64,000 bases of DNA from Cyanobium sp. AMD-g (GTDB lineage Bacteria; Cyanobacteriota; Cyanobacteriia; PCC-6307; Cyanobiaceae). Shown piece by piece: positions 18,930 to 32,067 of this stretch. The stretch lies in the NCBI RefSeq assembly GCF_024346395.1, contig NZ_JAGQCW010000003.1, positions 186,001 to 250,000 on the forward strand, in the 5' to 3' direction. Within the stretch, counting starts at the first letter, position 1; the number at the start of each line of letters is the position of its first letter. The translations under genes were made by a program, and so were the position numbers. The notes beneath the pieces were generated by a model that searched no databases, was not told the origin of the DNA, and saw only the letters and a program-made list of their open reading frames with translations.

Positions 18930-19180
18930 GGCTGATCTTCGCTGAGCAGGCCTGGCAGGACTATCTCCACTGGCAGGCCACCGACAAGACCCTGCTCAAG
19001 CGCATCAACGCACTGATCAAGGAAGCGTCTCAGACGCCCTATTCAGGCACCGGCAAGCCGGAAGCCCTGAAACACGCCCTGGCTGGCTATTGGTCACGCC
19101 GCACCAACGACGAGCACCGCATGGTCTACAAGGTCGACGGTGACGCCCTGCTGCTGGCCCAGCTGCGGTATCACTACTGA
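18926..19180 (+). CDS. YoeB/Txe-family mRNA interferase toxin
   Basis: This 84-residue RelE-fold toxin matches YoeB in length and motifs: AWQDYLHWQATDKTLLKRINALIKEA, the G-x-G-K-P-E-x-L-K stretch (GTGKPEALKHALAGYWSRR) containing the catalytic Glu, then DEHRMVYKV with the catalytic Arg, and the C-terminal RYHY with the catalytic His and Tyr. All the expected catalytic residues are visible, so it should be active. YoeB cleaves mRNA on the ribosome. It forms an overlapping pair with the antitoxin. Confidence 0.92.
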   Translation: MRLIFAEQAWQDYLHWQATDKTLLKRINALIKEASQTPYSGTGKPEALKHALAGYWSRRTNDEHRMVYKVDGDALLLAQLRYHY

Positions 19181-19237
19181 CCCCGATAACCCCGCTTCCA
19201 GAAGCGCCGCACCTGCTGGGGCCAGTCGCAGCAGGCC

Positions 19238-19461
19238 CTAACTGCCCAGCCAGTCCTGGGGAAGGTGGGCCAGAGAGCGGAATTCAGGATCCTTGTGCAC
19301 CAGCACCGCCCCCTCCAGCTCAGCGGCGGCGGCGATCCAGGCATCGGCCACGGAGAGGGGCAGGGAGCGCTGCAGCAGTTCGGCGACGCGCGCTCCGCGC
19401 CGGCTTCGTTGTCACGCAGGGCCAGCAGGGCGGAGGTGTCAAGCAGCCAGCGGCCGGCCAT
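19238..19461 (-). pseudogene. Broken PIN-domain (VapC-type) toxin
   Basis: The first frame gives MAGRWLLDTSALLALRDNEAG, a normal PIN start with the first acidic residue in LLDTSALL. After AER the frame shifts, and the remaining PIN C-terminus (RVAELLQRSLPLSVADAWIA and then ELEGAVLVHKDPEFRSL) continues in another frame to a stop at 19238. The joined product is only about 74 residues instead of about 130, so there is an internal deletion as well as a frameshift. The conserved SVADAWIAA motif, which carries a metal-binding Asp, is out of frame. The gene should be dead. Confidence 0.75.
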
Positions 19462-19575
19462 CAGGCCTCCTGCTGGCGATCGTGGCGGCGATCGGCGAGC
19501 AGACGGGTGGTGGCGCCTCCGGCGCCGGAGCCGCGGAAGGCGGTGATCGGATCCAGGGCAACGGGAACCACACGG
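19461..19575 (-). pseudogene. C-terminal remnant of the cognate antitoxin
   Basis: Directly upstream of the broken PIN gene, on the same strand, the frame reads RSRVVPVALDPITAFRGSG, then GGATTRLLADRRHDRQQEA and a stop that overlaps the PIN ATG (TGATG). The DPI-x-AFRGSG-x-GG-x-T-x-RLLADR pattern is typical of the C-terminus of AbrB-type antitoxins paired with PIN toxins. The DNA-binding N-terminus is missing: the homology ends where the 247-bp direct repeat begins. This suggests replacement by the repeat insertion or a deletion. Confidence 0.55.
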
Positions 19576-19818
19576 CTGCGCACACGCCTGAGCACCGATG
19601 AGCTGCGCGCCCTCACGCGCGGCAGCGACCCCTGATGGTGCTGGTGGATTCGACTGTGATCCTAGATGTGGCCAGGCAGGATCCGCACTGGCGCCGCTGG
19701 AGCCGCCAGCGATGGAAGGACGCTCTGACTGCCGGGCCGGTGGTGATCAATGTGATCGTCTACGGCGAGATCGCGTCTGCCTGCGAGTGGATCGAGGTGG
19801 TGAATGAGATCCTGCCGG
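19572..19818 (+). repeat. 247-bp direct repeat, copy 1
   Basis: This block is nearly identical to 20781-21027, with about a dozen base differences and the same length. It contains the last 18 codons of an antitoxin-like frame (RTRLSTDELRALTRGSDP and stop) and the first 61 codons of a PIN gene. An intact AbrB/Doc module lies between the copies. Recombination between them would delete that module. Confidence 0.85.
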
Positions 19819-19934
19819 ATGTCCTGATCGGCGCCCATGCCCTGGTGGAGCGGATCCCGGTCCTGGAGCTGGTCACCCCAAAGCGGCGAAGCTCCGTCCA
19901 CCCCCGGGACCATCGGCAGGAACCTCGGGGATGA
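19635..19934 (+). pseudogene. PIN-domain toxin with internal deletion (copy 1)
   Basis: The first 61 residues (starting MVLVDSTVILDVARQD and ending IEVVNEILP) are a normal PIN N-terminus with the Asp of LVDSTVILD and the Glu of VYGEI. The protein then jumps straight to DVLIGAHALVERIPVLE, which is the late PIN motif with a metal-binding Asp, and ends in an unrelated tail. The central 40 or so residues are absent. Copy 2 at 20844 keeps that centre but lacks the DVLIGAHA part. The start overlaps the stop of an antitoxin-like remnant (TGATG). On the opposite strand, 19873-19995 could encode a 40-residue peptide (MLLTGSIDLSIGDLSGSD and on), probably also a fragment. Confidence 0.7.
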
Positions 19935-20021
19935 ATGCGGCGTCGGAGCCGCTCAGGTCGCCGATGCTGAGATCGATGGACCCGGTGAGTAGCATAGAAA
20001 TGTAATTTCGCTTGCCGAGTG

Positions 20022-20249
20022 ATGGTGCGTGAGCTGAAGCTGCGGCAAGTCGGTGGCTCCATCGCCGCCACGCTCCCCAAGGACATGGCTGATCGGCTCC
20101 ATCTGGCCGCCGGCGATCGGCTGCTGGCGATCGAAACCGACCAAGGGATCCTGCTCACGCCCTTCGATCCCACGGTCCAGGAGGCCCTGGTCATTGCGTC
20201 GAACGTGTCCGGCACCTACCGCAACGCCTTGCGGCAACTGGCGCAGTAA
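20022..20249 (+). CDS. AbrB/MazE-type antitoxin of a Doc module
   Basis: This 75-residue protein has a SpoVT-AbrB swapped-hairpin domain: VRELKLRQVGGSIAATLPKDMADRL, followed by LAAGDRLLAIETDQGILLTPFD. It lacks the usual Phd fold, but pairs of AbrB-type antitoxin with Doc toxins are common. A GTG directly before the ATG is an alternative start. It sits seven bases upstream of doc in the same direction, and the two are probably co-transcribed. Confidence 0.85.
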   Translation: MVRELKLRQVGGSIAATLPKDMADRLHLAAGDRLLAIETDQGILLTPFDPTVQEALVIASNVSGTYRNALRQLAQ

Positions 20250-20256
20250 GGGACCC

Positions 20257-20652
20257 ATGGCCGAGCCGCGATGGTTACCGCGGCTCGTGATCGAGGCCGT
20301 CCACCTCGATCAGCTGCGCGAACACGGAGGGCTGCGTGGCCTTCGTGACGAACACGCCCTCGAAGCCGCTCTGGCTCGCCCACGGCAGCGCTGGAATTTT
20401 GAGCCGGAATCCGACCTCGCCACCCTGGCGGCGGCGTATGCCTTCGGATTGGTCAAGGCCCATGCCTTTCACGACGGCAACAAGCGCACTGCTTTCCTCG
20501 CAGCGGTGATCTTTCTTGGCCTCAACGGTGTCGATCTCGTGGCTGAAGAAGAGGCCGTGGTGCAGGTGATGCTGGCGCTGGCAGCGGGTGAATGCTCGGA
20601 ACGCGCGCTGGAAACATGGCTGCGCTCCCACCTGCAGGCTCACAGGGGTTGA
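20257..20652 (+). CDS. doc: Doc-type (Fic fold) toxin
   Basis: The 131-residue protein has the Doc motif HAFHDGNKRTAF (H-x-F-x-D/E-G-N-K-R), which in Doc phosphorylates elongation factor Tu rather than adding AMP. Other Doc features are the N-terminal GLRDEHALEAALARPRQRW and DLATLAAAYAFGLVKAH. Catalytic His and the anion-binding GNKR are intact. It follows its antitoxin by seven bases. It is enclosed by the two 247-bp repeats that carry broken PIN genes. Confidence 0.9.
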   Translation: MAEPRWLPRLVIEAVHLDQLREHGGLRGLRDEHALEAALARPRQRWNFEPESDLATLAAAYAFGLVKAHAFHDGNKRTAFLAAVIFLGLNGVDLVAEEEAVVQVMLALAAGECSERALETWLRSHLQAHRG

Positions 20653-20780
20653 TCTTTTCCTGCCGCCGCGCCCTCAAGAACACGATCGCCTGAATGAATT
20701 CTCTGCGGCAATCGTCATTCAGGTGGTCTGGGAGAGCCAACCCAGCCGGGGGGCTGAGGGGTGCAGCGCCTGCGGCAGAG

Positions 20781-21027
20781 ACGGTTGCGCACACGCCTGA
20801 GCACCGATGAGCTGCGCGCCCTCACGCTCGGCAGCGAACCCTGATGGTGCTGGTGGATTCGACAGTGATCCTCGATGTGGCCAGGCAGGATCCGCACTGG
20901 CGCCGCTGGAGCCGCCAGCAATGGAAGGACGCTCTGACTGCCGGGCCGGTGGTGATCAATGTGATCCTCTACGGCGAGATCGCGTTTGCCTGCGAGCGGA
21001 TCGAGGTGGTGGATGAGATCCTGCCGG
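20781..21027 (+). repeat. 247-bp direct repeat, copy 2
   Basis: This is the partner of 19572-19818. It has the same antitoxin tail (RTRLSTDELRALTLGSEP and stop) and PIN N-terminus. Sequence similarity stops in both copies right after the codons for EILP, at the bases CTGCCGG, where the two PIN genes take different paths. The 130 bp before it (20653-20780) holds nothing I can recognise. Confidence 0.85.
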
Positions 21028-21203
21028 CCCACCTCTACCACTACCGCAGCATTCCCAGGGAAGCGGCCTTTCTGGCGGCCTGTGCCCATGGCGACGACCG
21101 CGAGCGTGGTGGCCAACGGCGGAGGATCCCGCTGCTGACGAGAGTCGCCCGCCGCTATCGCCAGGCGTTTCCTGGCCCTGAGCTGATCACCCTCCAGCGG
21201 TGA
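20844..21203 (+). pseudogene. PIN-domain toxin lacking the late metal-binding motif (copy 2)
   Basis: This 119-residue frame keeps the PIN N-terminus and centre (AHLYHYRSIPREAAFLAACAHGD) and the C-terminus (IPLLTRVARRYRQAFPGPEL), but the segment expected between RRRI and PLLTR, the ILPDxLIGAHA block with a metal-binding Asp, is missing. Copy 1 still has that block. The deletion is in frame, with GGATCC-like bases at the junction. It is likely inactive as a nuclease although the frame is open. It might still bind antitoxin. Confidence 0.65.
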
Positions 21204-21274
21204 TTGAAGGCAAGGCGGTTCGGGCCTCCATGAGCTTTCGATCGTTTGGTCGAAGATGAGGCCATGGCGCTGGT

Positions 21275-21358
21275 TCAGCGGCTGCGCTGCAGACACCGAC
21301 CCAACTGAACCAGCCAGCCCAGCAGCTGCAGGCCGTAGACGAGGTGGTGCAGTTCGCC
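21275..21358 (-). pseudogene. Fragment of a b561-type cytochrome gene
   Basis: In this otherwise empty 350-bp gap the minus strand reads GELHHLVYGLQLLGWLVQLG and then a stop after seven more codons. This matches GQLHHLAYSLHLVAWLLIGL of the intact cytochrome gene at 28067-28600, including the paired His residues that bind haem. No start or other parts are seen. It is a leftover of a second copy. The rest of 21204-21557 shows no gene. Confidence 0.5.
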
Positions 21359-21557
21359 CGCACGCAGCCCGATTCATTGTTCCCATGGCGTTTGTATTGC
21401 ATGGAGTGAAGCTGTGCGGCGAACAGAAAGGCTGCGCGCCGGTCGGTCACATCATGGCCAGTACGATGGCCCATGAGGTTTCCTGTTCCCAGGGGCGAAG
21501 GTCACCCTTGCCGAAGGACGAGAAGGCGATCCCACTGTTCCTGTCTGGTGTCTCTTC

Positions 21558-22289
21558 ATGACGAAACAACTGCAGTTCTATGAGAACGCCGTGCCCGTCA
21601 GTGCCCAGCGGCATGCGGCCTGGTGCCTGGAGCGCCAGAGCGACTATGCGTATGCCAGCCAGTCGAATGTTGTGCCGCTCACGGCGGTGGAGTTTCCCTT
21701 CGCGGCGATGGAGTACTCGATTGTGTTCGTGGGTACCGAAGAGGCTCCCACGCCGGTGGTGCTGCTTGGCGTGAAACCCGAAGAGAATCTCTATCTGGAG
21801 GATGGCCATCGCTGGAAGGCCCGCTACATCCCGGCCTTCGTGCGGCGCTATCCTTTCGTGTTCGCCAAGGGCAACGAGGCCAACACCTACACCCTGTGCA
21901 TCGATGAGAGCTACGGGGGCTGGAATCAGGAGGGGCGTGGCAAGGCCCTGTTTGATGAAAACGGCAGTGGCACGGAGTATCTCAAGGGCATGATGAAGTT
22001 CGTGACGGACTTCCAGCGGGAGATCGCCCGCACCAGCAGCTTCTGCCAGAAGCTGAAGCAGCTGGATCTGTTGGATTCCATGGCGGCTCGCTTCAAGTTG
22101 GCGGATGGCAAGGATGCTGAGGTGAAAGGCTTCATGGCTGTGGATCGGCAGAAGCTGATCACTCTCCCCGGCGATACCCTGGTGGAGCTGGCGGGCAACG
22201 GCATGCTGGAGCTCATCTATGCCCACCTGCTTTCGATGCGGCACTTCGGGGAGCTGACCGAAACGCTTGCTGCTGGCAGCGGCGGCTGA
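21558..22289 (+). CDS. SapC family protein
   Basis: This 243-residue protein matches SapC: PLTAVEFPFAAMEYSIVF near residue 40, LEDGHRWKARYIPAFVRRYPFVFA near 80 and CIDESYGGW near 115. SapC was named for its location with S-layer export genes in Campylobacter and Caulobacter-like bacteria, and its own role is uncertain. There is no signal peptide. Here the neighbour is a very large repetitive surface-type protein on the opposite strand, 306 bp away. This supports a link to surface protein biology, but that is inference from position. Confidence 0.85.
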   Translation: MTKQLQFYENAVPVSAQRHAAWCLERQSDYAYASQSNVVPLTAVEFPFAAMEYSIVFVGTEEAPTPVVLLGVKPEENLYLEDGHRWKARYIPAFVRRYPFVFAKGNEANTYTLCIDESYGGWNQEGRGKALFDENGSGTEYLKGMMKFVTDFQREIARTSSFCQKLKQLDLLDSMAARFKLADGKDAEVKGFMAVDRQKLITLPGDTLVELAGNGMLELIYAHLLSMRHFGELTETLAAGSGG

Positions 22290-22503
22290 GCAAGGATGTC
22301 ACTGCCGATCGGTGTCGATCAAGCCTCATCCCCAGAAGCTCCTCTGCACTGAGAGGCGGCGGTGTGGCTTTGACCGCAAGAGGAGGGAAGATCAGCGCGG
22401 AGACCTGACCGAGACAGTGCCGGAGCATCCGTCAAGCATGCTTGAAGCCACGTCTGGTGTTCATGTGGCCTGTTTTCCATAGGGAAGCATGGAACAGCAA
22501 TGA

Positions 22504-22528
22504 AAAAGGTGGGTAGGGCCCACCTTTT
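22504..22528 (-). terminator. Intrinsic terminator of the large surface protein gene
   Basis: A perfect 10-bp stem (AAAAGGTGGG with CCCACCTTTT) encloses a 5-base loop. Read on the minus strand, it ends in CCCACCTTTTTC, a good U-tract, 67 bases after the stop of the 1242-residue gene. On the plus strand it could also help stop sapC transcription. The remaining 22290-22595 gap shows no gene. Confidence 0.8.
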
Positions 22529-22595
22529 GGTATTGGCTGACGAAGGCATCAGCTTACGGAGGATGGATGCGACTGGAAGGCCATGGGCTCATCGG

Positions 22596-25500
22596 CTAAA
22601 TGCTTGTCTGAACATGATGGAATCCGAAGCCGCTGGCAATCTCCTGGCCAAAGAAGGAGGCTTCGAAGTACTGCTTGGAGCCGCCCCAGGTGAAAGCGAT
22701 GGAAGGATCTGCGGCTGTGATCCTGCCATTGTTGTCGAGATCCCAGACGAGTTGGTAGTCCGCTGGCTTTCTCGGGCCGTCTTTATTCAGGAATGCCCAT
22801 CCGTCTTCATCAGTGAAACCATTGTCGATGATTGTTTTCTTCGTCTTGTCGGTCAGGAAGAATTTCTGGTTGGTGATGGGATCTCCTGACTCTTGGTCAA
22901 ATGCGAAGGTGCCTACGCCGATGAGCTTCTTGAAGTTATTCTTGTTGTAGACGCTGTCGCCTCCCTGGATCACCTCGTCGAACGAATGGAAGAACTCGTA
23001 CTCGGTATTGTCAAGGATGGGATCAAGGGAGGGGCTGGGCTTGCCGTCGGTGTCCACGGCATCCACGACTCCGCCGGTGTTGGCAGGAGTGAGATCAGGT
23101 TCATAGCCAATATTTCCTTTGGCGCTGTAGTCCAGGTGGACGTTGAGGAAGAAGGTCCCGTCGCCGCCGGTGGCAATATCATTAATGATGAGTTTGGTGT
23201 AGCCAGCGTACTCGCCGGTTCCGCCCTCTACGGTGATATCTGATTTGGAATGGCTGGCGAGAGTTCCTTGTGGATCCAGGCAATATTGGCCATTGGAGTC
23301 AGTGATGATATTCGCGTAGTCATACACATGGATGGGCTGACCTAGATCATCCTTGAAGAGATCGAATGGTTTGGGAATGTAGAGAGTGACATCGACAAAC
23401 TCCGTTGTTGTTGGCCCATTCCAGAATACATTGTAGTAAAACTGGCCTGGGTTGCTGGAGGAGAGCTTGTAGTTATTGCTGGCGTAGTTGAAGCGTGGAG
23501 TGAAGTTCAGATTGAATTGTTTTCCGCCGAGGTTGGAGTCTGTATCAAACGTGCACAGGCCGGAATCGGTGACAAGGCCAGGGGTGGTTCCCAGGTAGTG
23601 GGCTTTATCGTCGTCGTCTGTGGTGTGGGTTACCTCGCAGGAGTCTGTCCACTCTCCTTCTGCCGTGGCTGTGTTGCTGTGCTGGCCAGGCTGCCAGGGT
23701 GCGGTGTAGTAGAAGGTGTAGCTGTCCCCATCAATTGGGTTCCCATCGACATCATCTTCGAGCCCATCACCCGCACCAAGCGTTCCAATCTCAATCGTTT
23801 TATCTCCCACGCCGCCTATGTCGAAGACATTGTCGGTGAGTGTGACGTTAGAAAGGTCGACATTGCTCTTGTTGACGACCACGAACTTGAAGTCAGGATC
23901 AATACCTGCCAAGCTGGCCAGTGTCGGGCCCGTTGGGCTGTCGGCATCCCACCAGCTCTTGGATGGATTGTCGTGGTCAAGTCCATCCACTGAGACGTAT
24001 TTCTCCACGTCGATCTTCAGCACCGCGCCGAAGTAGGAGGCGGTGTCGCTGTCCTGTGCGGCGTCCTCGAGGCCGCAGCTGGTTAGATAGCTGGCGTCGA
24101 CGGTGACGGTGTTGGTGTAGAGGTCGCTGCTGTCCTTGCTGGCCAGGGCGATGGTGGAGGCGGTGTAGATCCAGGTTTCCCCTGCCTCGAGCACTCCGTC
24201 GCCGTCGTCCCCGTCGAAGTAGGTGGCCTCGACGGTGTCGTCGAAGACGACGATGTTGGACAGGTCGACATTGCCGCCGGAAGAGCTGACCTCGTACTGG
24301 AAGTAGACCGTCTCGCCGGCGAGCACGTTGATGGGGCCGTCGCCGAAGGTCTCGCCGTCGCAGGAGATCAGCTTGTCGATCGAGAGGGTCGGCAGCACCG
24401 CGCCGAAGTAGTTGGCATCATCCGTATCGAATGACGGTCCTGCAGTTGATAGCCAGTCGATTCTGCCTGTATTGGTATGCTGGTCTAGAATTGCAAATGG
24501 ACCAGTGTAGTAAACAGTCTCTGTGGCTCCAGGGGCGATGCTGGGGATGAGGATTGAACCTCCATCGGCCGCTCCGTTCAGGTCAAAGTCGCTGTCGCTT
24601 AATGTGACATTCTCTGCAATGGCGGTTGCGCTATTGTTTGTGATCTCAAACTTGAAGTATGTTGGAGTGCTGCCCGCGAGGAACTTTGGTCCTGTCGGCG
24701 AATCGGCATCATCCCATTTCACATTATCACAGGAAACAAACTTTTGGATTTCTAGGTCCTCGGGGCCTGGCAAGGGTTTGAAGTAGTTCCCGAAGTTGCC
24801 AACAGAATTAGCGGCATCCTCTGAGCCTGCACCTTGCAGTCCCTTGAATTGGGGCGTGAGCGTGGTTATGGTGAATGGGCCCCAGTAGTTGCTTCCTGTG
24901 GGATTGGGGACGCTATTCGGAGACGTTGGATATGTTTGGTGCCAGCCAGGCTGGATGGCTTCGGTTACGAAGAGGGTGTCATTCCTGAGTAGCGGTTTAT
25001 CCGGTTGGACCGCGGAAGAAAACTCGTAATAACCCAGCGGATCAATCGTGCCATCTCCGTTGATGTCAACAAGTCCAGTCGCTGTCGTGGTTGTTGAGTA
25101 CAGTGTATCTCCCGCTCCCGGTTCAAAAACACCATCCCCGTCATCCTTCCAGAGGTTCATTGTCCAGCCGCTTAGCCCAAGCTCTGTCGACTCCCACTGG
25201 GAGTTGGCGTTTGCGTCGTTCCATTTGAATCCTGAGATCAGGCCACGAACAACGACTCCTGGCTGTAGCTGAACGGCATTGCTGGGAGTGATCCAGGTTG
25301 CTACTGCTGTGCCTGTCCCCTCGATCTTTGTCTGTAGGCTTCCGCCAGTGAAGCCAGCAGCTCCCTTCGTGCCACCGTTTGGATTCGCTGGGGTTTGAAC
25401 TTCATTCGGCAGGGAGAGGCGCTGACCCCAATACAGGATTGATGTTGCTTCTCCATCTCTTTCATTGGCGATGGTCGGCGTAAAGGTGACGTCAGCGTAA

Positions 25501-26324
25501 AGAAAGAGCCCATTGGCTGACAGGCTATAGTCAACTGTAAGTACATCGGCGTTATCGACGTGGAAGTCGAACGCTTTATTGGGTAGGCCATTGGAGTTGA
25601 ATGTAAATCCGTCGCCGTCCTTGGTGATTGGTGTGATATCCCCAAAGTTTGGCGGTATGGCGCCCGGAAAGCTCCTGTCGAATGTATCGAGGTAAGCGAA
25701 GCCTCCTGCATCGGTGTTCGCTTGGTAGTAGTCAAGATTGATGCGAATCCCATAGATTGTTCCCACCGTAAGATTCTCGGCCTCGGTGGAAACGGGCAGC
25801 ACATCCCCTTCAAGGTAGGTTGCTTGATTTGGATTTGCTTGTCCATTGGCCCATTGTTGGGTAATTGTTTCCCACTGATTCAGGGTTATGGCGGGGTTGC
25901 CATCCGTAAAGCTGGTGATCGCCACCTCATCATCCGCCGTTCCCTTGACACCGTCTTCGCCAACGTTGGTGACGGTGAGGCGCAGGGTGGTGTTCAGCGC
26001 ATCGGGATCCACCAGCCATGTCGTCTGGACGCTCCCCTCCGCAGGATCAAGGTCGAAGTCGCCCCCGTCCTGGGCAATCCAGGGAGTTTCGGCCAGCAGG
26101 GCGGTGGCCTCTGCATCGACGACGTCATCGGCCGTGCCGTAGAGACCGTCATCGCCGGGGGCGCTGAGGATTTCGACCAGGAACTCCAGGTAGCTGCCAT
26201 TGGAAAAGCCCGTGGCCGTGATGGTGGCCGTTTCCAGCGGGGCGTAGTCGGCCTGGTCGGTGACGACCATGGGTTGCGTGACGGTCGACATGGCCTGATC
26301 CCCTGATACCTCACTCCCTGGCAT
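22596..26324 (-). CDS. Large repetitive surface/adhesin-like protein (SdrD_B-like and DUF11-type repeats)
   Basis: This 1242-residue acidic, Asp/Thr-rich protein has an N-terminal beta domain (VVTDQADYAPLETATITATG), an SdrD_B-type domain near residue 375 (ISGFKWNDANANSQWESTEL, SGWTMNLWKDDGDGVF), then three related repeats that each start with a K-(F/L/Y)-(V/I)-S-C/V-D motif and end with an NYFGAVL, SYFGAVL or HYLGT seam (residues about 525-905), typical of DUF11-like domains. The C-terminal third is unique. There is no signal peptide, sortase motif or C-terminal anchor, so type I secretion is possible. GC is visibly lower than its neighbours, which suggests transfer. AGGAG precedes the ATG; a second ATG 11 codons on is also well placed. 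Confidence 0.75.
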   Translation of the reverse strand: MPGSEVSGDQAMSTVTQPMVVTDQADYAPLETATITATGFSNGSYLEFLVEILSAPGDDGLYGTADDVVDAEATALLAETPWIAQDGGDFDLDPAEGSVQTTWLVDPDALNTTLRLTVTNVGEDGVKGTADDEVAITSFTDGNPAITLNQWETITQQWANGQANPNQATYLEGDVLPVSTEAENLTVGTIYGIRINLDYYQANTDAGGFAYLDTFDRSFPGAIPPNFGDITPITKDGDGFTFNSNGLPNKAFDFHVDNADVLTVDYSLSANGLFLYADVTFTPTIANERDGEATSILYWGQRLSLPNEVQTPANPNGGTKGAAGFTGGSLQTKIEGTGTAVATWITPSNAVQLQPGVVVRGLISGFKWNDANANSQWESTELGLSGWTMNLWKDDGDGVFEPGAGDTLYSTTTTATGLVDINGDGTIDPLGYYEFSSAVQPDKPLLRNDTLFVTEAIQPGWHQTYPTSPNSVPNPTGSNYWGPFTITTLTPQFKGLQGAGSEDAANSVGNFGNYFKPLPGPEDLEIQKFVSCDNVKWDDADSPTGPKFLAGSTPTYFKFEITNNSATAIAENVTLSDSDFDLNGAADGGSILIPSIAPGATETVYYTGPFAILDQHTNTGRIDWLSTAGPSFDTDDANYFGAVLPTLSIDKLISCDGETFGDGPINVLAGETVYFQYEVSSSGGNVDLSNIVVFDDTVEATYFDGDDGDGVLEAGETWIYTASTIALASKDSSDLYTNTVTVDASYLTSCGLEDAAQDSDTASYFGAVLKIDVEKYVSVDGLDHDNPSKSWWDADSPTGPTLASLAGIDPDFKFVVVNKSNVDLSNVTLTDNVFDIGGVGDKTIEIGTLGAGDGLEDDVDGNPIDGDSYTFYYTAPWQPGQHSNTATAEGEWTDSCEVTHTTDDDDKAHYLGTTPGLVTDSGLCTFDTDSNLGGKQFNLNFTPRFNYASNNYKLSSSNPGQFYYNVFWNGPTTTEFVDVTLYIPKPFDLFKDDLGQPIHVYDYANIITDSNGQYCLDPQGTLASHSKSDITVEGGTGEYAGYTKLIINDIATGGDGTFFLNVHLDYSAKGNIGYEPDLTPANTGGVVDAVDTDGKPSPSLDPILDNTEYEFFHSFDEVIQGGDSVYNKNNFKKLIGVGTFAFDQESGDPITNQKFFLTDKTKKTIIDNGFTDEDGWAFLNKDGPRKPADYQLVWDLDNNGRITAADPSIAFTWGGSKQYFEASFFGQEIASGFGFHHVQTSI

Positions 26325-26344
26325 AGCAGTGCTCCTGGATACAA

Positions 26345-27612
26345 AACCCGCCCTGTTATGAGCTCCCTGTGTGATGTGCTGTTACGCCTCCATACGTTGA
26401 GAAAGCATCACATCGGTGCCAATCACTTCGCTCCTGCAGCGCATTGAGACAAGCTGAGGCGGATCAGCCGCATCCCTGCGGGCGGATGCAGCCCGCCTCA
26501 TGGCTGCGGTCCGAGGTGTTGCTGCCTCGCTTGACGCGTTTTCGCTGCACATGCGCTCCGCTCCAGATTCTCTTTCCCTTGTTACATTTTCTTTCCGGCT
26601 TCATGAAGAAAATCCCCTTTGGTTAAGAGCAAGCCCATCGTTTTCCCCAGTTGTCTCCAGCGGTGAGGCGCGGCCCAGGGGCATGGTGGGTTTGTGTGGC
26701 GTTGGGCATGGAGGATGCCGGCATCGGCTCGCCTGCGGCCCGTTGCTACCCCGCACCGTTCTCAGTTGGCCAGAAGTGGACCCGACACGATCCCCGGGCG
26801 TGCGATCACGAACTCGTGATGGACCGCATGCCGGGGTCACCATGCCTTCGCGGGAATCTGTCCATCGGGTTGCCGCGATCCGGCCAGCACGCCCACCAGG
26901 GTGACGAGCAAGATCCTTTCAGGGATCACTCATGAGGGGATTCCCCTGTCCAGGCCGAGTGGCTGCTGCAGCGGGTCTCACCACCCGGCACGGGAGCATT
27001 CCGTCAGCCCGGCCGTTCGACGTGGCTCTCGACGCAAGGCTGCAGTGGACCCGGCCTTGGCGGGACGCATCGGCAGCCTGCGTTCAGCCGGTTGCTCCCG
27101 CTCGGGCCCGATCAAGGGAAGGCCTTGCTGGGGTGATTCGCTTCACCTGCAGAGATTGTCCCTGTGACATTCTGCGTTGATAGAAGGTGGCAGGAGCTTC
27201 CGACAGTGCTTAAGGCAGTGCAGAAATGAAAAAAAACTGTAGGAAGGAAGGGCTTTGCCACTGGATGCATCGCTGTTGATCAGGCCCCTTCCTTCTCGCC
27301 TTGAGAGGGCTCTCATCCACCGCACGCCGATGGAGGCAGTCCGGATGGTCCGTCTGGTGGCCCCGCCCTTCCGATTTCACTGGGATGGCCATGCCGGGAT
27401 TGCCTTGGTGTGCGGCCTGTCGACCTTCTTCTTCCGCGCATGTCGGCAGCGCTTTTCTGCAGGAGTTCGGGCAGTTCTTCATCGGGACACCAGGCAGACA
27501 TGGCTGCGGGGTGGGGAGGGGGCTGGCATCCCTTAGGCGGTTCGAACGCTGAAGGAAGCTGTTGTCCCATCTCTTCCTCCTGTTTCGAAGTCATCTCCGT
27601 GGAGGTCAATCC
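26345..27612. other. Gene-poor 1.27-kb stretch
   Basis: No convincing gene is seen. Open frames here are short, overlap in several phases and lack protein-like composition or ribosome sites. GC is a little lower than in the flanks. The first 100 bases, next to the large surface protein gene, should hold its promoter. A run of eight A (around 27231) is present. It may be decayed DNA or hold a non-coding RNA, but nothing specific was recognised. Confidence 0.5.
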
Positions 27613-27876
27613 ATGTTCCGTCTTGGCAGGCTACATCCATTTCCTGCCGTGATTGATTCCATCGACCACAAGGTTATCCACTTGCTGTTGGAGGAGAAGG
27701 CAGGAGCAATGTTGCATCTGCAACGCCAGATGGAGGAGCTGCAACACAGCCTTCAGGCCTTTATTCCCGCCGATCCCTCTCCGATCGACGTTAAAGGCCC
27801 ATCTCTCCAAGAGACCACCCAGCCCTATCCCATGGGCGGTGCGATTGCACATCATTTTGAGAACTGGATGCGCTGA
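27613..27876 (+). CDS. Small hypothetical protein
   Basis: This 87-residue protein starts at an ATG with GGAGG seven bases upstream, a strong ribosome site that favours it over an in-frame codon upstream. The central part (DHKVIHLLLEEKAGAMLHLQ and RQMEELQHSLQAF) is likely helical and may form a short coiled coil. No family is recognised and no membrane segment is present. It borders the gene-poor stretch, so it might be a regulatory or accessory protein of unknown role. Confidence 0.45.
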   Translation: MFRLGRLHPFPAVIDSIDHKVIHLLLEEKAGAMLHLQRQMEELQHSLQAFIPADPSPIDVKGPSLQETTQPYPMGGAIAHHFENWMR

Positions 27877-28066
27877 GCAGAGACAGCAGGGCTCTGCCGC
27901 GACGCATCACGGCTTCCCTCAACAATCACGTACATCAGCGGCTCATCGTGCGCATGAAGGCAGAAGGCCGGAGCATCAGCAATCTGGCGGCTTCCCTCCT
28001 TCAGGCCCACCGGAGTCTCCCCATCTGCCCCATGAATCATGGACTATTCCCTGGGGCGCCTGCCCT

Positions 28067-28600
28067 TCAGCGCCCCCGCTTCAGATACCGCCGCACCTGC
28101 CCCGACCAGTCGCCCGGCAGATCACCCGGCCGCAGGGTCGTGCTGGCCATCGAGGCCAGCAGCGGCGTGCCCCCCAGCCGCAGGCTGTCGCCCAAGTGCA
28201 GCACCACCGCCAGGCCGATCAGCAGCCAGGCCACCAGGTGCAGGCTGTAGGCCAGGTGGTGCAGCTGGCCGTCCCGCAGCCAGTCCTCCTGCATCAGCTT
28301 GCCGGTGGCCACCGCCAGAGCCAGGGCGCCCAGAGCCATGGTGTTGGTGATGCGCTTCAGGCGCGGCCGGCCCAGGGTGAGGGCGTAGGCGGCGAAGACC
28401 AGGCCCAGGGGCAGCAGCAGAAAGCCCGCCTGGCCATGCAGGTCGATCCAGCTGCCGGGCGGGGTGAAGGGCAGCCGCCCCCAGCGGCCGTCGTAGCGGC
28501 TGTAGACGATCAGCCCGCTCAGCCAGGCGGCCAGCACCAGCAACGCCGTGACGCCATGGGTCAGCCGCAGCAGGGAGGGCTGGTAAGGGGGGCGCGCCAT
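28067..28600 (-). CDS. Cytochrome b561-like membrane protein
   Basis: This 177-residue protein has four hydrophobic helices and histidines placed for haem b binding: LLRLTHGVTALLVLAAWLSG (helix 1), WIDLHGQAGFLLLP (helix 2), GQLHHLAYSLHLVAWLLIGL (helix 3) and VVLHLGDSLRLGG (helix 4). The layout fits the b561/hydrogenase cytochrome b superfamily, which passes electrons across or within the membrane. The partner is unknown. A fragment of a second copy is at 21275-21358. About 190 bp upstream (27877-28066 on the downstream side) holds no clear gene. Confidence 0.8.
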   Translation of the reverse strand: MARPPYQPSLLRLTHGVTALLVLAAWLSGLIVYSRYDGRWGRLPFTPPGSWIDLHGQAGFLLLPLGLVFAAYALTLGRPRLKRITNTMALGALALAVATGKLMQEDWLRDGQLHHLAYSLHLVAWLLIGLAVVLHLGDSLRLGGTPLLASMASTTLRPGDLPGDWSGQVRRYLKRGR

Positions 28601-28659
28601 CGCGTCAGCCGGATCCGGCCCACCAGCGTGCCACGGGCCGACGCCACCAGCCTCTGGCT

Positions 28660-29541
28660 TCAGCCGCTGTTCCCGAGACGGGGCCGTCTGCCCTTCTGGA
28701 GGCGGGCCCTCAACCTGCGGCTGCAGCGGAAGGCGACGGCAAGACCGAGCGCAGGCAACGGTCCTGGAACACTCGGGTTGTACACCTCGAGGCTGTAGGT
28801 GTTGTCCTGAACGAACTGCCCCCCGTTGAACGTTCCGCCGTACCTGAGTTGATAGGTGCCTGCCGCAAGCGGTTGCAGCATCAACCAGTAGCCATCACTG
28901 GCGAAGCGGTCCGGATTGCTCGTCGCCAGGATCTCGGTAAAGAGTGTGCCTGTGCCTGCACTGGCCTCAAATCCGCCATCAAGGCCGGAAGGTACGGGAG
29001 AGAGGTTGGGCTTCCCATCACAGCTCTGGCGATAGCTCCTGACATCTGGCACGAGATCTGTGCCGTTGAGCGTGGCAAGGAAGACGGAGCTGGAATCGTT
29101 CGCAATGGCGTCGATGTTGCTGACGGCGCTCGCGCAGACGGCGGCCGGAGAATCCTGGAAGCTGGGATCGAAAGACTCCCATTCAAGATAGTTGACCGGC
29201 GAAAAGAAGATGTGCTGGTTGCTGGCGATCCTGGCCGTACGGTTGATCGGCTGCCCATCCAGCGATCCCGTCAGGTAGTACACAGGGCTTTCCGGTGTGC
29301 CATTGATCAGATCCAGCGATGCAGAATCACTGGAGCCGAACAGGGGGTTGGATGCTGCAGGCGCCTGCCCCACAGCCGTCCACCAGCGCGTTGACCATTC
29401 GTACTGGCTGACACCTCCCACCGCGGCTCCTGGGTCGGCAATGGACTGAGCGCTTGCAGCCGTGCTTAGAAGGGGCAGGCAGAGGATTCCGGCCGTCCCC
29501 AGACACAGGCCAAGGAATCGCGATCGATGCTGAATAACCAT
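28660..29541 (-). CDS. Exported PEP-CTERM-type protein
   Basis: From the ATG at 29541 the protein has 293 residues with a signal peptide (MVIQHRSRFLGLCLGTAGIL, cut near SAQS). The C-terminus has a sorting tag of the cyanobacterial PEP-CTERM type: VPGPLPALGLAVAF followed by a basic cluster (RCSRRLRARLQKGRR). Such proteins are processed by an exosortase, which is not in this window. The mature part has no recognised enzyme motif but is rich in Ser, Gly and Asn. It lies downstream of psbA on the same strand, separated by a terminator. Confidence 0.75.
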   Translation of the reverse strand: MVIQHRSRFLGLCLGTAGILCLPLLSTAASAQSIADPGAAVGGVSQYEWSTRWWTAVGQAPAASNPLFGSSDSASLDLINGTPESPVYYLTGSLDGQPINRTARIASNQHIFFSPVNYLEWESFDPSFQDSPAAVCASAVSNIDAIANDSSSVFLATLNGTDLVPDVRSYRQSCDGKPNLSPVPSGLDGGFEASAGTGTLFTEILATSNPDRFASDGYWLMLQPLAAGTYQLRYGGTFNGGQFVQDNTYSLEVYNPSVPGPLPALGLAVAFRCSRRLRARLQKGRRPRLGNSG

Positions 29542-29690
29542 GTCAGTACATCCGATGGGCGAAAAGATGCTGCAGTTCTGTGCTGCTGCATGCCGCTGTA
29601 ACCTATGGATCCAGTGTCTTTCTGCGTTTGAATGTTCACAAAGATCCAGGCAGTGAATATGCTGCACAGGCAGGCACGATCTGCCACGGC

Positions 29691-29716
29691 AAAAGGGCCC
29701 GGATCTCTCCGGGCCC
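29691..29716 (-). terminator. Intrinsic terminator downstream of psbA
   Basis: A perfect 9-bp stem GGGCCCGGA with TCCGGGCCC around a 4-base loop is followed, on the minus strand, by TTTT. It starts 46 bases after the psbA stop codon. It should end the psbA transcript before the PEP-CTERM gene. Confidence 0.85.
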
Positions 29717-29762
29717 GGCAGCAGCTCAGCGAGGCGACGGCTGGGCGGGGTTCAAAGCCCCG

Positions 29763-30842
29763 CTAACCGATCGACGGCGCCGTGAGGGCCACGGGGGTGC
29801 TGGCGGTGGCCGCCAGATCGAGGGGGAAGTTGTGCACGTTGCGCTCGTGCATCGCCTCGATGCCCAGGCCGCCGCGGTTGAGGATGTCGGCCCAGGTGTC
29901 GACCACGCGTCCCTGGTGATCCAGGATCGAGTGGTTGAAGTTCAGCCCGTTGAGGTTGAACGAGAAGCTCACCACCGCCAGGGCGGCGAACCAGATCCCC
30001 ACCACCGGCCAGGCGGCCAGCAGGAAGTGGAGGCTGCGGCTGTTGTTGAAGGAGGCGTACTGGAAGATCAGCCGGCCGAAGTAGCCGTGGGCGGCCACGA
30101 TGTTGTAGGTCTCCTCCTCCTGGCCGAACTTGTAGCCCCGGTTCTGGGACTCGGTCTCGGTGGTCTCCCGCACCAGGGAGCTGGTGACGAGCGAGCCGTG
30201 CATGGCGGAGAACAGGGAGCCGCCGAACACGCCGGCCACGCCGAGCATGTGGAAGGGATGCATGAGCACGTTGTGCTCCGCCTGCAGCACCAGCATGAAG
30301 TTGAAGGTGCCGGAGATGCCGAGCGGCAGGGCGTCGGAGAAGGAGCCCTGGCCGATCGCATAGATCAGCAGCACGGCGGTGGCGGCGGCCACCGGGGCGG
30401 AATACGCCACGGCGATCCAGGGGCGCATGCCCAGGCGGTAGCTGAGTTCCCACTCCCGGCCCATGTAGGCGAAGACGCCGATCAGGAAGTGGAAGATGAT
30501 CAGCTGGTAGGGCCCGCCGTTGTACAGCCACTCATCGAGGCTGGCGGCTTCCCAGATGGGATAGAAGTGCAGGCCGATGGCGTTGCTGGAGGGCACGACG
30601 GCGGCGGTGATGATGTTGTTGCCGTAGAGCAGGCCGCCGGAGACCGGTTCGCGGATGCCGTCGATGTCGACGGGTGGGGCGCCGATGAAGGCGATCACGA
30701 AGCAGACGGTGGCCGTGAGCAGGGTGGGGATCATCAGCACGCCGAACCAGCCCACGTAGAGGCGGTTCTCGGTGCTGGTGACCCAGTTCTTGAAGCGATT
30801 CCAGGGATGGCCCCCGGAACGCGACAGGCTGGTGGTGGTCAT
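29763..30842 (-). CDS. psbA: Photosystem II D1 protein, low-oxygen D1' variant
   Basis: This 359-residue D1 protein binds the special-pair chlorophylls, QB and the Mn4Ca cluster. All key residues are present: Tyr161, Asp170, Glu189, His190, His198, His215, Ser264, His272, His332, Glu333, His337, Asp342 and Ala344 (processing site). Position 130 is Glu. It carries Ala80, Leu158 and Ala286, the three changes (G80A, F158L, T286A) published as the mark of D1', the D1 form induced by low oxygen in several cyanobacteria. Further unusual residues are Ala144 and Ala162 where Cys and Pro are typical. It is an ATG start, with a monocistronic layout and a terminator. Confidence 0.95.
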
Positions 30843-30922
30843 GGCTAAGCATCCGAAGATGGACAGACCGGCAGGGGGGCGGCGACACCGCCTTGCGGAT
30901 GCACCACTTGCCACTGCCGGAC

Positions 30923-30937
30923 GATAAAACGATAGCG
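30923..30937 (-). promoter_or_regulatory. Putative regulatory motif in the psbA/DUF3122 intergenic region
   Basis: Read in the psbA direction, the 15-mer CGCTATCGTTTTATC lies 81 bases upstream of the psbA start, within the 124-bp gap shared with the divergent DUF3122 gene. It matches 13 of 15 bases of the motif upstream of the other DUF3122 gene (12363-12377). It contains TATCGTTTTATC, a near repeat of TATC. It could be the core promoter or a regulator site for both genes. Confidence 0.3.
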
Positions 30938-30966
30938 TTGAATCTTTCGGGTTCGGGACTCCTGCC

Positions 30967-31509
30967 ATGCGTGTTTCTGCTCAACCTGTTACGGCCTCTC
31001 CAGGCGCCCGACGGCGCCCCTGGGCCGCAACTCTGGCGCCCCTGCTCCTGGGGCTGCTGCTGCTGCTGACCCTGGCGCCCGGCCTGGCCAGCGCCGCAGG
31101 GGGCCAGCGCTGGAGCCTGCGGGACCAGGACGACAACCGCTGGTCGCTGCGGATCTTCGCCCAGCCCGATCCCGCCTACCCCAGCGGTGATCGCCTGCGC
31201 CTCAGCGCCCTCACCCCGGGGATCGCCGTCGACCACAGCCGGCCCCTGCTGATCAGTGATGGCATAGGTGGCGCCTGGACCCTGGCCAACCGCAGCGAAG
31301 AGCTGGTGGCCCCAGGGGGCGGTGAGCTGCCGGAGGGGTCGGCCCAGTTCGACATGGCGGCCCTGCTGCCCCGCCCCAGTGAGGCCCTGCCCCTGGAGCT
31401 CACCATGCCCCTGGCGGGAGAGGCGTCAGCGTTGCTGGTGCTCGGTCCGGAGGAAACGGAAGCCCTGCACGCGTTGCGCGACCCCGGGGCCCCGGTTCAG
31501 GAGGGGTGA
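30967..31509 (+). CDS. Exported DUF3122 family protein, second copy
   Basis: This 180-residue protein has a long signal region ([21 protein letters not shown]) with a likely cut after ASA near residue 43. The mature part shows the same blocks as the copy at 12397: [35 protein letters not shown] and [20 protein letters not shown]. By eye, well over half of the aligned core is identical. It is divergent from psbA with a 124-bp gap. The function of the family is unknown; location next to a D1' gene hints at a lumenal or periplasmic role linked to photosynthesis, which is inference. Confidence 0.75.
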
Positions 31510-31669
31510 GGACGGGGCAGCCCGTCGATCGGATCGCTGCATCCAGTTCATTCCTGGTCAGCTGCGACCGGCGAAGCACGTCGCCGTGGATCCTGCCGTT
31601 GTGGACCAGCACCTGGGGCCGAGCCTCCACGAACATCTCGATGGCCCTGCTGGAGCTGGTGGCCGCCAT
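31508..31669 (-). pseudogene. Fragment of a DUF421 (YetF-like) membrane protein gene
   Basis: The minus strand encodes MFVEARPQVLVHNGRIHGD and [22 protein letters not shown], which match the C-terminal cytoplasmic domain of the DUF421/YetF family (E-x-x-P-x-x-L-(V/I)-x-x-G-x-(I/V) and L-x-x-(D/E)-L-x-x-x-(L/I)-R-x-x-G-(C/V)). The membrane helices that should precede it are absent, and after CPVL the frame runs into unrelated sequence opposite the DUF3122 gene. This is a decayed remnant. Confidence 0.55.
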
Positions 31670-31707
31670 TCATGGAGTTCTGAGCGGCGTTGGACAGAGG
31701 CGCCATC

Positions 31708-31899
31708 TCATCGGCCGAGGCGGATGCCGCGCAGTGAATCCATCAGGCCCACCGCATTGAGCAACCAGAGCACCACCGCCACGACGACGACAATGTTCAG
31801 GATGCGTTTGATCTGGCCATCCATGGGGATGTAGTTGTTGACGAGCCATAGCAGGACCCCGACGACAATCAGGGTGACGATCAGTGAAATCAGAGACAT
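31708..31899 (-). CDS. Thivi_2564-family small membrane protein
   Basis: This 63-residue protein has two helices. The N-terminal ISLIVTLIVVGVLLWLVNNYIPMDGQIKR and following ILNIVVVVAVVLWLLNAVGL match a small membrane family found widely in bacteria, with the conserved N-x-Y-I-P-M-D-x-x-I-K turn. Function is unknown. It sits next to a sigma factor and other small stress-type genes (the 48-residue membrane protein and the CsbD protein), so a role in envelope stress is possible. Confidence 0.75.
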   Translation of the reverse strand: MSLISLIVTLIVVGVLLWLVNNYIPMDGQIKRILNIVVVVAVVLWLLNAVGLMDSLRGIRLGR

Positions 31900-32067
31900 G
31901 AATCGTTTTCCTCTGGATGTAAGGCGAATTGCTGGTGCAACGAAAAGACTGTGTCATGCGCTGGCTGAAAAAGCTGGTTGCAGTCCATCTGCCGCAGATC
32001 TGCCTTTCACTTGTCCCCGTTATCGAGGTGGCCCCACGATGAGCGTGGCCCCCTATTTGTTGGTCCG

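Follow-up and report, generated by a model that had tools for sequence, protein, structure and literature searches.

The SapC family (PF07277), which we take to be named after sapC of Campylobacter fetus, is present in several phyla, its name deriving from S-layer work in one organism. The giant-adhesin substrates of type I secretion are not known to carry an N-terminal signal. One such adhesin is SiiE, a large repeat protein (PMC6272769). In C. fetus sapC is named as a component of the Sap transporter (PMC3887049), and the S-layer section of a report on Chromatium okenii includes a putative SapC without a signal peptide (PMC6374484). A protein of about 8000 residues with LEPR-XLL, RTX and serralysin domains is described from Vibrio; the word SapC is absent from the text of that paper (PMC10868602), and from two papers on huge proteins or giant genes (PMC11573180, PMC12288469). 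No link between SapC and giant proteins was found in the open-licence papers searched; the link may be published outside that scope.

The window analyzed here (the whole stretch of 64,000 nucleotides from Cyanobium sp. AMD-g) encodes a SapC that resembles the family in being full-length, single-domain and devoid of a visible signal peptide. No S-layer locus was recognized in the window. The sapC gene faces one for a 1242-residue repeat protein, and in other genomes very large repeat proteins with LEPR-XLL (NF012209) or DUF4347 are likewise encoded beside sapC. The 1242-residue protein differs from these in having no match to LEPR-XLL or DUF4347 in Pfam or NCBIfam and no RTX nonapeptide repeats, and its gene converges on sapC. 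With the type I giant adhesins it shares the character of a large repeat protein, whereas it differs from them in lacking RTX repeats and an adjacent transporter gene. It has DUF7507 in common with an ORF of a Chromatiaceae locus (L048) and with a counterpart in the congener G037 (contigs C83 and C87), to which its C-terminal half is homologous; in contrast to these it has no matrixin-like domain, and the L048 ORF lies upstream of sapC on the same strand. The features of the window are as follows.

21558..22289, plus strand: SapC family protein, 243 aa (PF07277, E 2.3e-70); SapC of the sister species G013 is collinear
22296..29692, no strand: segment with the large gene, absent between SapC and psbA in G013 (the blastn blocks break off at 22257 and start again at 29693)
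22503..22528, minus strand: terminator hairpin after the large gene, from pattern and folding; the plus strand is foldable too
22596..26324, minus strand: 1242-aa repeat protein, called ORF, without visible signal peptide
22653..24275, minus strand: residues 684-1224 of this protein, a C-terminal half with homology to the G037 protein, ending about where the G037 matrixin-like domain starts
24087..24341, minus strand: DUF7507 repeat, the better of two stretches (Pfam)
24915..25289, minus strand: SdrD_B-like stretch by eye, residues ~346-470, with weak matches in seven other cyanobacteria
25884..26285, minus strand: N-terminal "TD-DYAP" domain, residues 14-147, 51-53% identical to ORFs of G217 and G209
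26291, minus strand: perhaps the true start (MSTVTQPM) of the 1242-aa protein, inferred from the N-terminal homologues of G217 and G209
29763..30968, minus strand: psbA-like gene, the synteny anchor, 86% identical to G013 C40:19437-20603

The two genes and their surroundings

The preliminary description had reported a 1242-residue ORF facing sapC, and both frames were found where it placed them, converging with 306 bases between. PF07277 spans residues 15-233 of the SapC protein (profile positions 2-220 of 220) at 237.1 bits against a curated cut-off of 28.9, which makes it a full-length member of the family. It is the single sapC match in the 3.12-Mb genome (G000), consists of one domain with no signal peptide visible by eye, and gave no transporter domain in the Pfam search. 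Its AlphaFold2 model has a mean pLDDT of 88.5; the model matched no PDB entry at E up to 0.001, and none of 752 re-aligned chains reached a Z of 2 or more. A kinship with leucine-rich repeats was considered and dismissed, the five weak profile matches (best E 0.0019) being judged due to chance. The SapC of G013, located in the same place, is 84.6% identical in nucleotides over 700 bases (blastn). The dN of 0.11 and dS of 0.587 between the two (0.079 and 0.289 for psbA, by comparison) mean that SapC is under purifying selection.

The large gene has a GC of 0.551, the lowest among the 43 called ORFs of at least 150 aa in the window, which average 0.690 (sd 0.051), in agreement with the earlier remark that it falls far below its neighbors; SapC, at 0.605, is fourth lowest. 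Upstream of the first ATG its frame stays open for just 19 codons (1261 versus 1242). As described before, inspection by eye shows neither a signal peptide nor an anchor; a signal peptide is likewise not visible at the start of the homologues, which have 1542 aa in G217 and at least 915 aa in G209. Of the two repeat types proposed earlier, the DUF11 type stands, with two stretches of DUF7507 (PF24346, E 2.3e-6, 28 bits where the cut-off is 27), the sole Pfam family above its own cut-off; NCBIfam gave nothing at E up to 1. SdrD_B is absent from the Pfam matches at E up to 1, so the designation SdrD_B-like stands on the appearance of residues ~350-420, a region with weak matches to ORFs in seven other cyanobacteria (E 2.3e-5 to 5.5e-4). 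At that same threshold Pfam showed no SLH or other S-layer domain. A matrixin-like C-terminal domain gave no Pfam match in the protein, no trace was found downstream of its gene, and the G168 domain as query had no match in the genome.

The terminator that the preliminary description placed between the genes is borne out by a stem of 10 bp and a U-run, with a folding energy of -14.5 kcal/mol (z -4.43) for the minus strand and -16.2 kcal/mol for the plus strand. The pattern used occurs at 7 sites in 21300-27300, with 5.0 expected. There were no sigma-70-like promoters in 21300-27300, no RNA families in 19000-32000 and no tRNAs in the whole window. Pseudogene remains of a giant were sought in 26325-28070, 22290-22595 and 21204-21557 with cyanobacterial giants and the ORFs of SapC loci (cut at 1500 aa) as tblastn queries, and were rejected on a best E of 1.4e-4 over 20 residues.

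To the left of SapC, a 247-bp direct repeat (19572-19818 and 20781-21027, 96% identical) overlaps in each copy a frame which we take by eye to be VapC-like, with YefM/YoeB-, AbrB- and Doc/Fic-like frames (also by eye) nearby; together these look like a toxin-antitoxin island. To the right lies a 335-aa protein (28660-29667) whose end (VPGPLPALG...) is presumably PEP-CTERM-like, and a comparable end occurs in an ORF near SapC in G037 (C114:71599-72774). The psbA name, too, was assigned by eye. Outside the window on its left, 22 kb from SapC, the minus strand encodes a 3953-aa RTX protein (G000:C3:173515-185376), and further RTX frames of 1505 aa and 1806 aa lie on contigs C1 and C5. The genome has three HlyB-like ABC genes (597-713 bits, below the model cut-off of 725.55), none of them inside the window at E up to 1e-20, and DUF4347 had no match anywhere in this genome.

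SapC and very large neighbors in other genomes

Linkage of SapC with such proteins elsewhere, which the preliminary description had named as a check, was found for very large repeat proteins in general. The species-genome scan covered the best 80 of at least 587 loci, a best-matching and non-random set mostly from Proteobacteria and Planctomycetota, with ORFs called by a custom script; neighbors were counted at 79 of them, L115 being excluded (SapC not called). A same-strand ORF of at least 1000 aa lay within 1 kb of SapC at 43 of the 79 loci, compared to 1 of 62 control genes drawn from the same loci. With all nine Bradyrhizobium loci removed the proportion was 35/70, and at 37/79 loci the same-strand neighbor had at least 3000 aa, most of the big ORFs running beyond the fetched stretch. 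The other 36 loci, several of which end at a contig end, include eight of the nine named planctomycete loci. Big neighbors lay on the same strand in 44 cases and on the opposite strand in 2 (L092, convergent, and L110); the former comprise 23 upstream and 21 downstream ORFs, with median gaps of 48 and 167, respectively.

In the window, too, SapC has an ORF of at least 1000 aa no further than 1 kb away, but not the same-strand, operon-like layout seen elsewhere, and the convergent arrangement means that the two genes share no operon. This arrangement is unusual: a convergent ORF of at least 1000 aa within 1 kb occurs at one locus of the 79 (L092, which also has a same-strand giant), and one of at least 450 aa at six.

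The big neighbors differ by side. A LEPR-XLL-type motif near the N-terminus (~residues 48-78) was seen in 19 of 21 big downstream ORFs versus 2 of 30 smaller ones, the pattern being loose, the two smaller matches due to chance and HMM confirmation at hand for L067 alone; the two big ORFs without the motif (L054 and L077) are both complete. A matrixin-like motif was present in 15 of 39 same-strand upstream ORFs of at least 450 aa, at most ~160 residues from the end, versus 2 of 141 among the remaining ORFs of this length at these loci. The exact motif is missing from eight Bradyrhizobium upstream ORFs, yet they align to the same domain. The term matrixin-like denotes a motif match outside the proteins scanned with Pfam, and in these the family was seen in four of five, always below its curated cut-off (18.4-23.6 versus 24 bits).

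Other gene families recur near SapC. A set of 91 loci was clustered, made up of the 80 above and 11 stitched cyanobacterial loci (one contig being present twice as L051 and G119). A metalloprotease-HlyD fusion of 716 aa occurred at 31 of them, a GAF-HlyD protein of 620 aa at 30, a truncated SecA-like ATPase at 20 and an adaptor at 16; all four families were absent from the 11 stitched cyanobacterial loci. HlyD-type adaptors and the truncated SecA-like ATPase recur next to SapC in Proteobacteria, with TolC confirmed in one locus. The proteobacterial metalloprotease-HlyD query matched 7 of 16 cyanobacteria (11 with SapC and 5 others), mostly in the HlyD region only; in the 11 SapC-bearing ones the matches were generic to that region, and in the SapC-less G019 the match covered residues 39-389 (E 4.2e-5, 27%). 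At L057:10933-16964 and in its proteobacterial relatives, the GAF-HlyD adaptor, the HExxH metalloprotease-HlyD fusion and the truncated SecA-like ATPase are linked to SapC, a gene set that is a possible secretion system for giant proteins. As a separate observation, two families of ~270 and 292 aa without Pfam match stand in tandem near SapC and giants (L050:12766-14465 and L067:7301-9002); their hosts are Nostoc, Trichormus and Kistimonas, and in Nostoc they accompany a radical SAM protein and an O-methyltransferase.

Among cyanobacteria, the surroundings of 12 full-length SapC genes from 11 genomes were compared; a weak partial match in G402 was left out. Five have a large same-strand ORF within 1 kb (the first five below), and four have no big ORF beside SapC: those of G272 and of G013, whose contig stops 2.7 kb away, and both copies of G444.

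G026: 12,358 aa, same strand
G037: 13,008 aa, same strand
G119: called at 5,150 aa, with its beginning 115 bases off the contig end, same strand
G168: at least 1,427 aa, at a contig end, same strand
G207: at least 6,224 aa within the stretch, with an open frame of 11,117 aa, same strand
G290: 4,159 aa, ~800 bp away, divergent, of another, glycine-rich kind
G023: at least 747 aa, 1.5 kb away, divergent, with a matrixin-like stretch

Against neighbors of 5,000-13,000 aa in some cyanobacteria, the earlier word giant is generous for the 1242-aa protein of the window. DUF4347 opens the giants of G026, G037 and G207, and that of G026 also has RTX repeats with lectin-like and solute-binding domains. 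In the genus, DUF4347 frames were found in 3 of 5 SapC-bearing genomes versus 2 of 15 others tested; G037 has a second one (10,886 aa, C114:43620-44009) ~30 kb from SapC. The two SapC copies of G444 (C55:1507-2235 and C2:62387-63121) are divergent, on a very long branch and without giant neighbors, and their role may differ. Matrixin-like stretches occur also in three SapC-less cyanobacteria outside the genus (G062, G069 and G084), so having the domain does not by itself imply a need for SapC.

Origins of the two genes

SapC was found in 5 of 42 genomes of the genus and in 8 of the 386 that make up the phylum sample, one of the eight being the weak partial match of G402 below the cut-off. A tree was built from 82 SapC proteins, leaving out seven Bradyrhizobium rows and two additional ORFs (L049 and L076). 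In it, the SapC of the window pairs with that of Cyanobium sp. CACIAM 14 (L063; 100/99) and groups with Chromatiaceae SapC (99/95). The SapC proteins of G023, G026 and G037 form a separate clade (100/100) in a weakly supported, mostly betaproteobacterial set (86/80), and a third clade (98/91) holds those of G168, Nostoc, Trichormus, G272, G207 and G290. Forcing the five same-genus SapC proteins together was rejected (p-AU 0.0248, tested after the tree was seen). The separate clades and this test point to more than one probable entry of SapC into the genus, and by its place in the tree the SapC of the window was probably gained apart from that of the three congeners.

The 1242-type protein is present in 2 of 42 genomes of the genus, those of the window and G037, and both are among the five with SapC (p 0.012, post hoc and on two genomes). 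Any stretch of it occurs in 10 of 386 genomes of the phylum sample, namely that of the window, G217 and G209 (N-terminal domain) and seven with a short inner stretch only; G217 and G209 are outside the eight that match SapC. The G037 homologue is located away from SapC. It consists of two ORFs running off contig ends (C83 and C87), one of which matches residues 684-1224 and the other the N-terminal part. The contig ends have 24 identical residues in common, and the two ORFs look like one split gene. The C-terminal piece carries DUF7507, DUF11 and a matrixin-like end, which across 152 residues shares 47% identity with the end of the ORF directly upstream of SapC in the Chromatiaceae locus L048, which also carries DUF7507 and DUF11. 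The SapC of Chromatiaceae, the nearest relative of that in the window, follows such an ORF. On account of DUF7507 and of the homology to the G037 protein, itself resembling the L048 ORF, the 1242-residue protein is, as far as sequence goes, of the same make-up as the neighbor of the nearest-related SapC, minus the protease-like (matrixin-like) end. The type of protein thus fits what the preliminary description had envisaged.

The window is collinear in blocks with a G013 contig over ~19.6-49.4 kb (blastn), and SapC and psbA have the same place and orientation in both. As the segment 22296-29692 has no counterpart in G013, either the two genes were not gained as one unit or G013 lost the large gene. 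We consider that SapC and the 1242-residue gene were probably not transferred together, with loss in G013 the alternative. The earlier proposal of a transferred unit consequently divides: gain of SapC from outside agrees with the tree and the p-AU, whereas a single joint unit does not fit the G013 SapC without a large gene or the G037 homologue located away from SapC.

A possible role for SapC

The tight gaps to giant genes, together with the HlyD-type and SecA-like genes in Proteobacteria, suggest a cytosolic helper acting on very long chains as they are exported. We tentatively favor SapC as a cytosolic factor for the export or maturation of very large repeat proteins, of which the 1242-residue protein would be a reduced client; its cytosolic place, its role in export and the client relation are what we infer, while the linkage, the homology, the synteny, the tree and the selection are observed results. 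SapC would most likely act in the cytosol on giant, exported-looking proteins before or during export, possibly by holding the chain, by maturation or by hand-over. In the window genome it came from outside the genus, is maintained by selection and has its place beside psbA, as in the sister species. The 1242-residue protein, a surface-type repeat protein by appearance, would have arrived at the site separately or have been lost in the sister species. It would probably be a client of SapC, perhaps alongside the 3953-aa RTX protein, and SapC would work in trans through one of the three HlyB-like transporters. Several results count against this reading: the convergent layout, the position of the G037 homologue away from SapC, the SapC genes with no big neighbor (G272, both G444 copies, eight of the nine named planctomycete loci and, overall, 36 of 79 loci), the matrixin-like stretches of SapC-less cyanobacteria, the window free of HlyB-like genes, the metalloprotease-HlyD partner seen in SapC-bearing cyanobacteria only as generic HlyD-region matches, and the SapC model that matches no solved fold.

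It is also quite conceivable that the proximity is coincidental, SapC serving another exported protein (such as the 3953-aa RTX protein) or none, and the 1242-residue gene being an unrelated low-GC insertion. The presence of SapC at the site in G013 without the large gene is consistent with this, as are the convergent orientation, the duplication and toxin-antitoxin-like frames on the other side of SapC, and the absence of G217 and G209, holders of the N-terminal domain, from the SapC-matching genomes of the phylum sample. It is at odds with the same type of protein adjoining the nearest-related SapC and with the co-occurrence of the two in the genus. That SapC exports the 1242-residue protein to form a surface lattice, the two being a transferred S-layer or adhesion unit, appears improbable: the name of SapC, its linkage to very large repeat proteins, its acquisition from outside and the low GC of both genes would suit such a unit, but G013 makes joint transfer improbable, the large protein has no SLH or S-layer domain in Pfam and SapC has no transporter domain. 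Least probable of all, in our judgment, is that truncation of a matrixin-ended protein has left the gene as a remnant with its function lost. The protein does stop about where the matrixin-like domain of G037 begins, and that domain is untraceable downstream or elsewhere in the genome, yet the frame of 1242 codons is intact with a terminator hairpin directly 3' of it. Moreover, the G217 homologue also has no matrixin match in Pfam, so the domain may be optional.

A broader extension of the helper role proposed for SapC, which we regard as rather unlikely, is that SapC marks an uncharacterized export pathway. In Proteobacteria the pathway would comprise SapC, the truncated SecA-like ATPase, an intramembrane-metalloprotease-HlyD fusion, GAF-HlyD and RND-type adaptors and TolC, for giants that are of the LEPR-XLL kind or matrixin-ended. 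In cyanobacteria, the window genome included, SapC would have been taken over without that machinery and become coupled to the type I systems of the host, with the 1242-residue protein among its smallest clients. If the link of the family as a whole to giants is true, it would give SapC a testable role and offer a handle on the export of chains of 5,000-13,000 residues. The window genome would then be a small case of it, with one SapC, one candidate client of 1242 residues and one RTX protein of 3953 residues.
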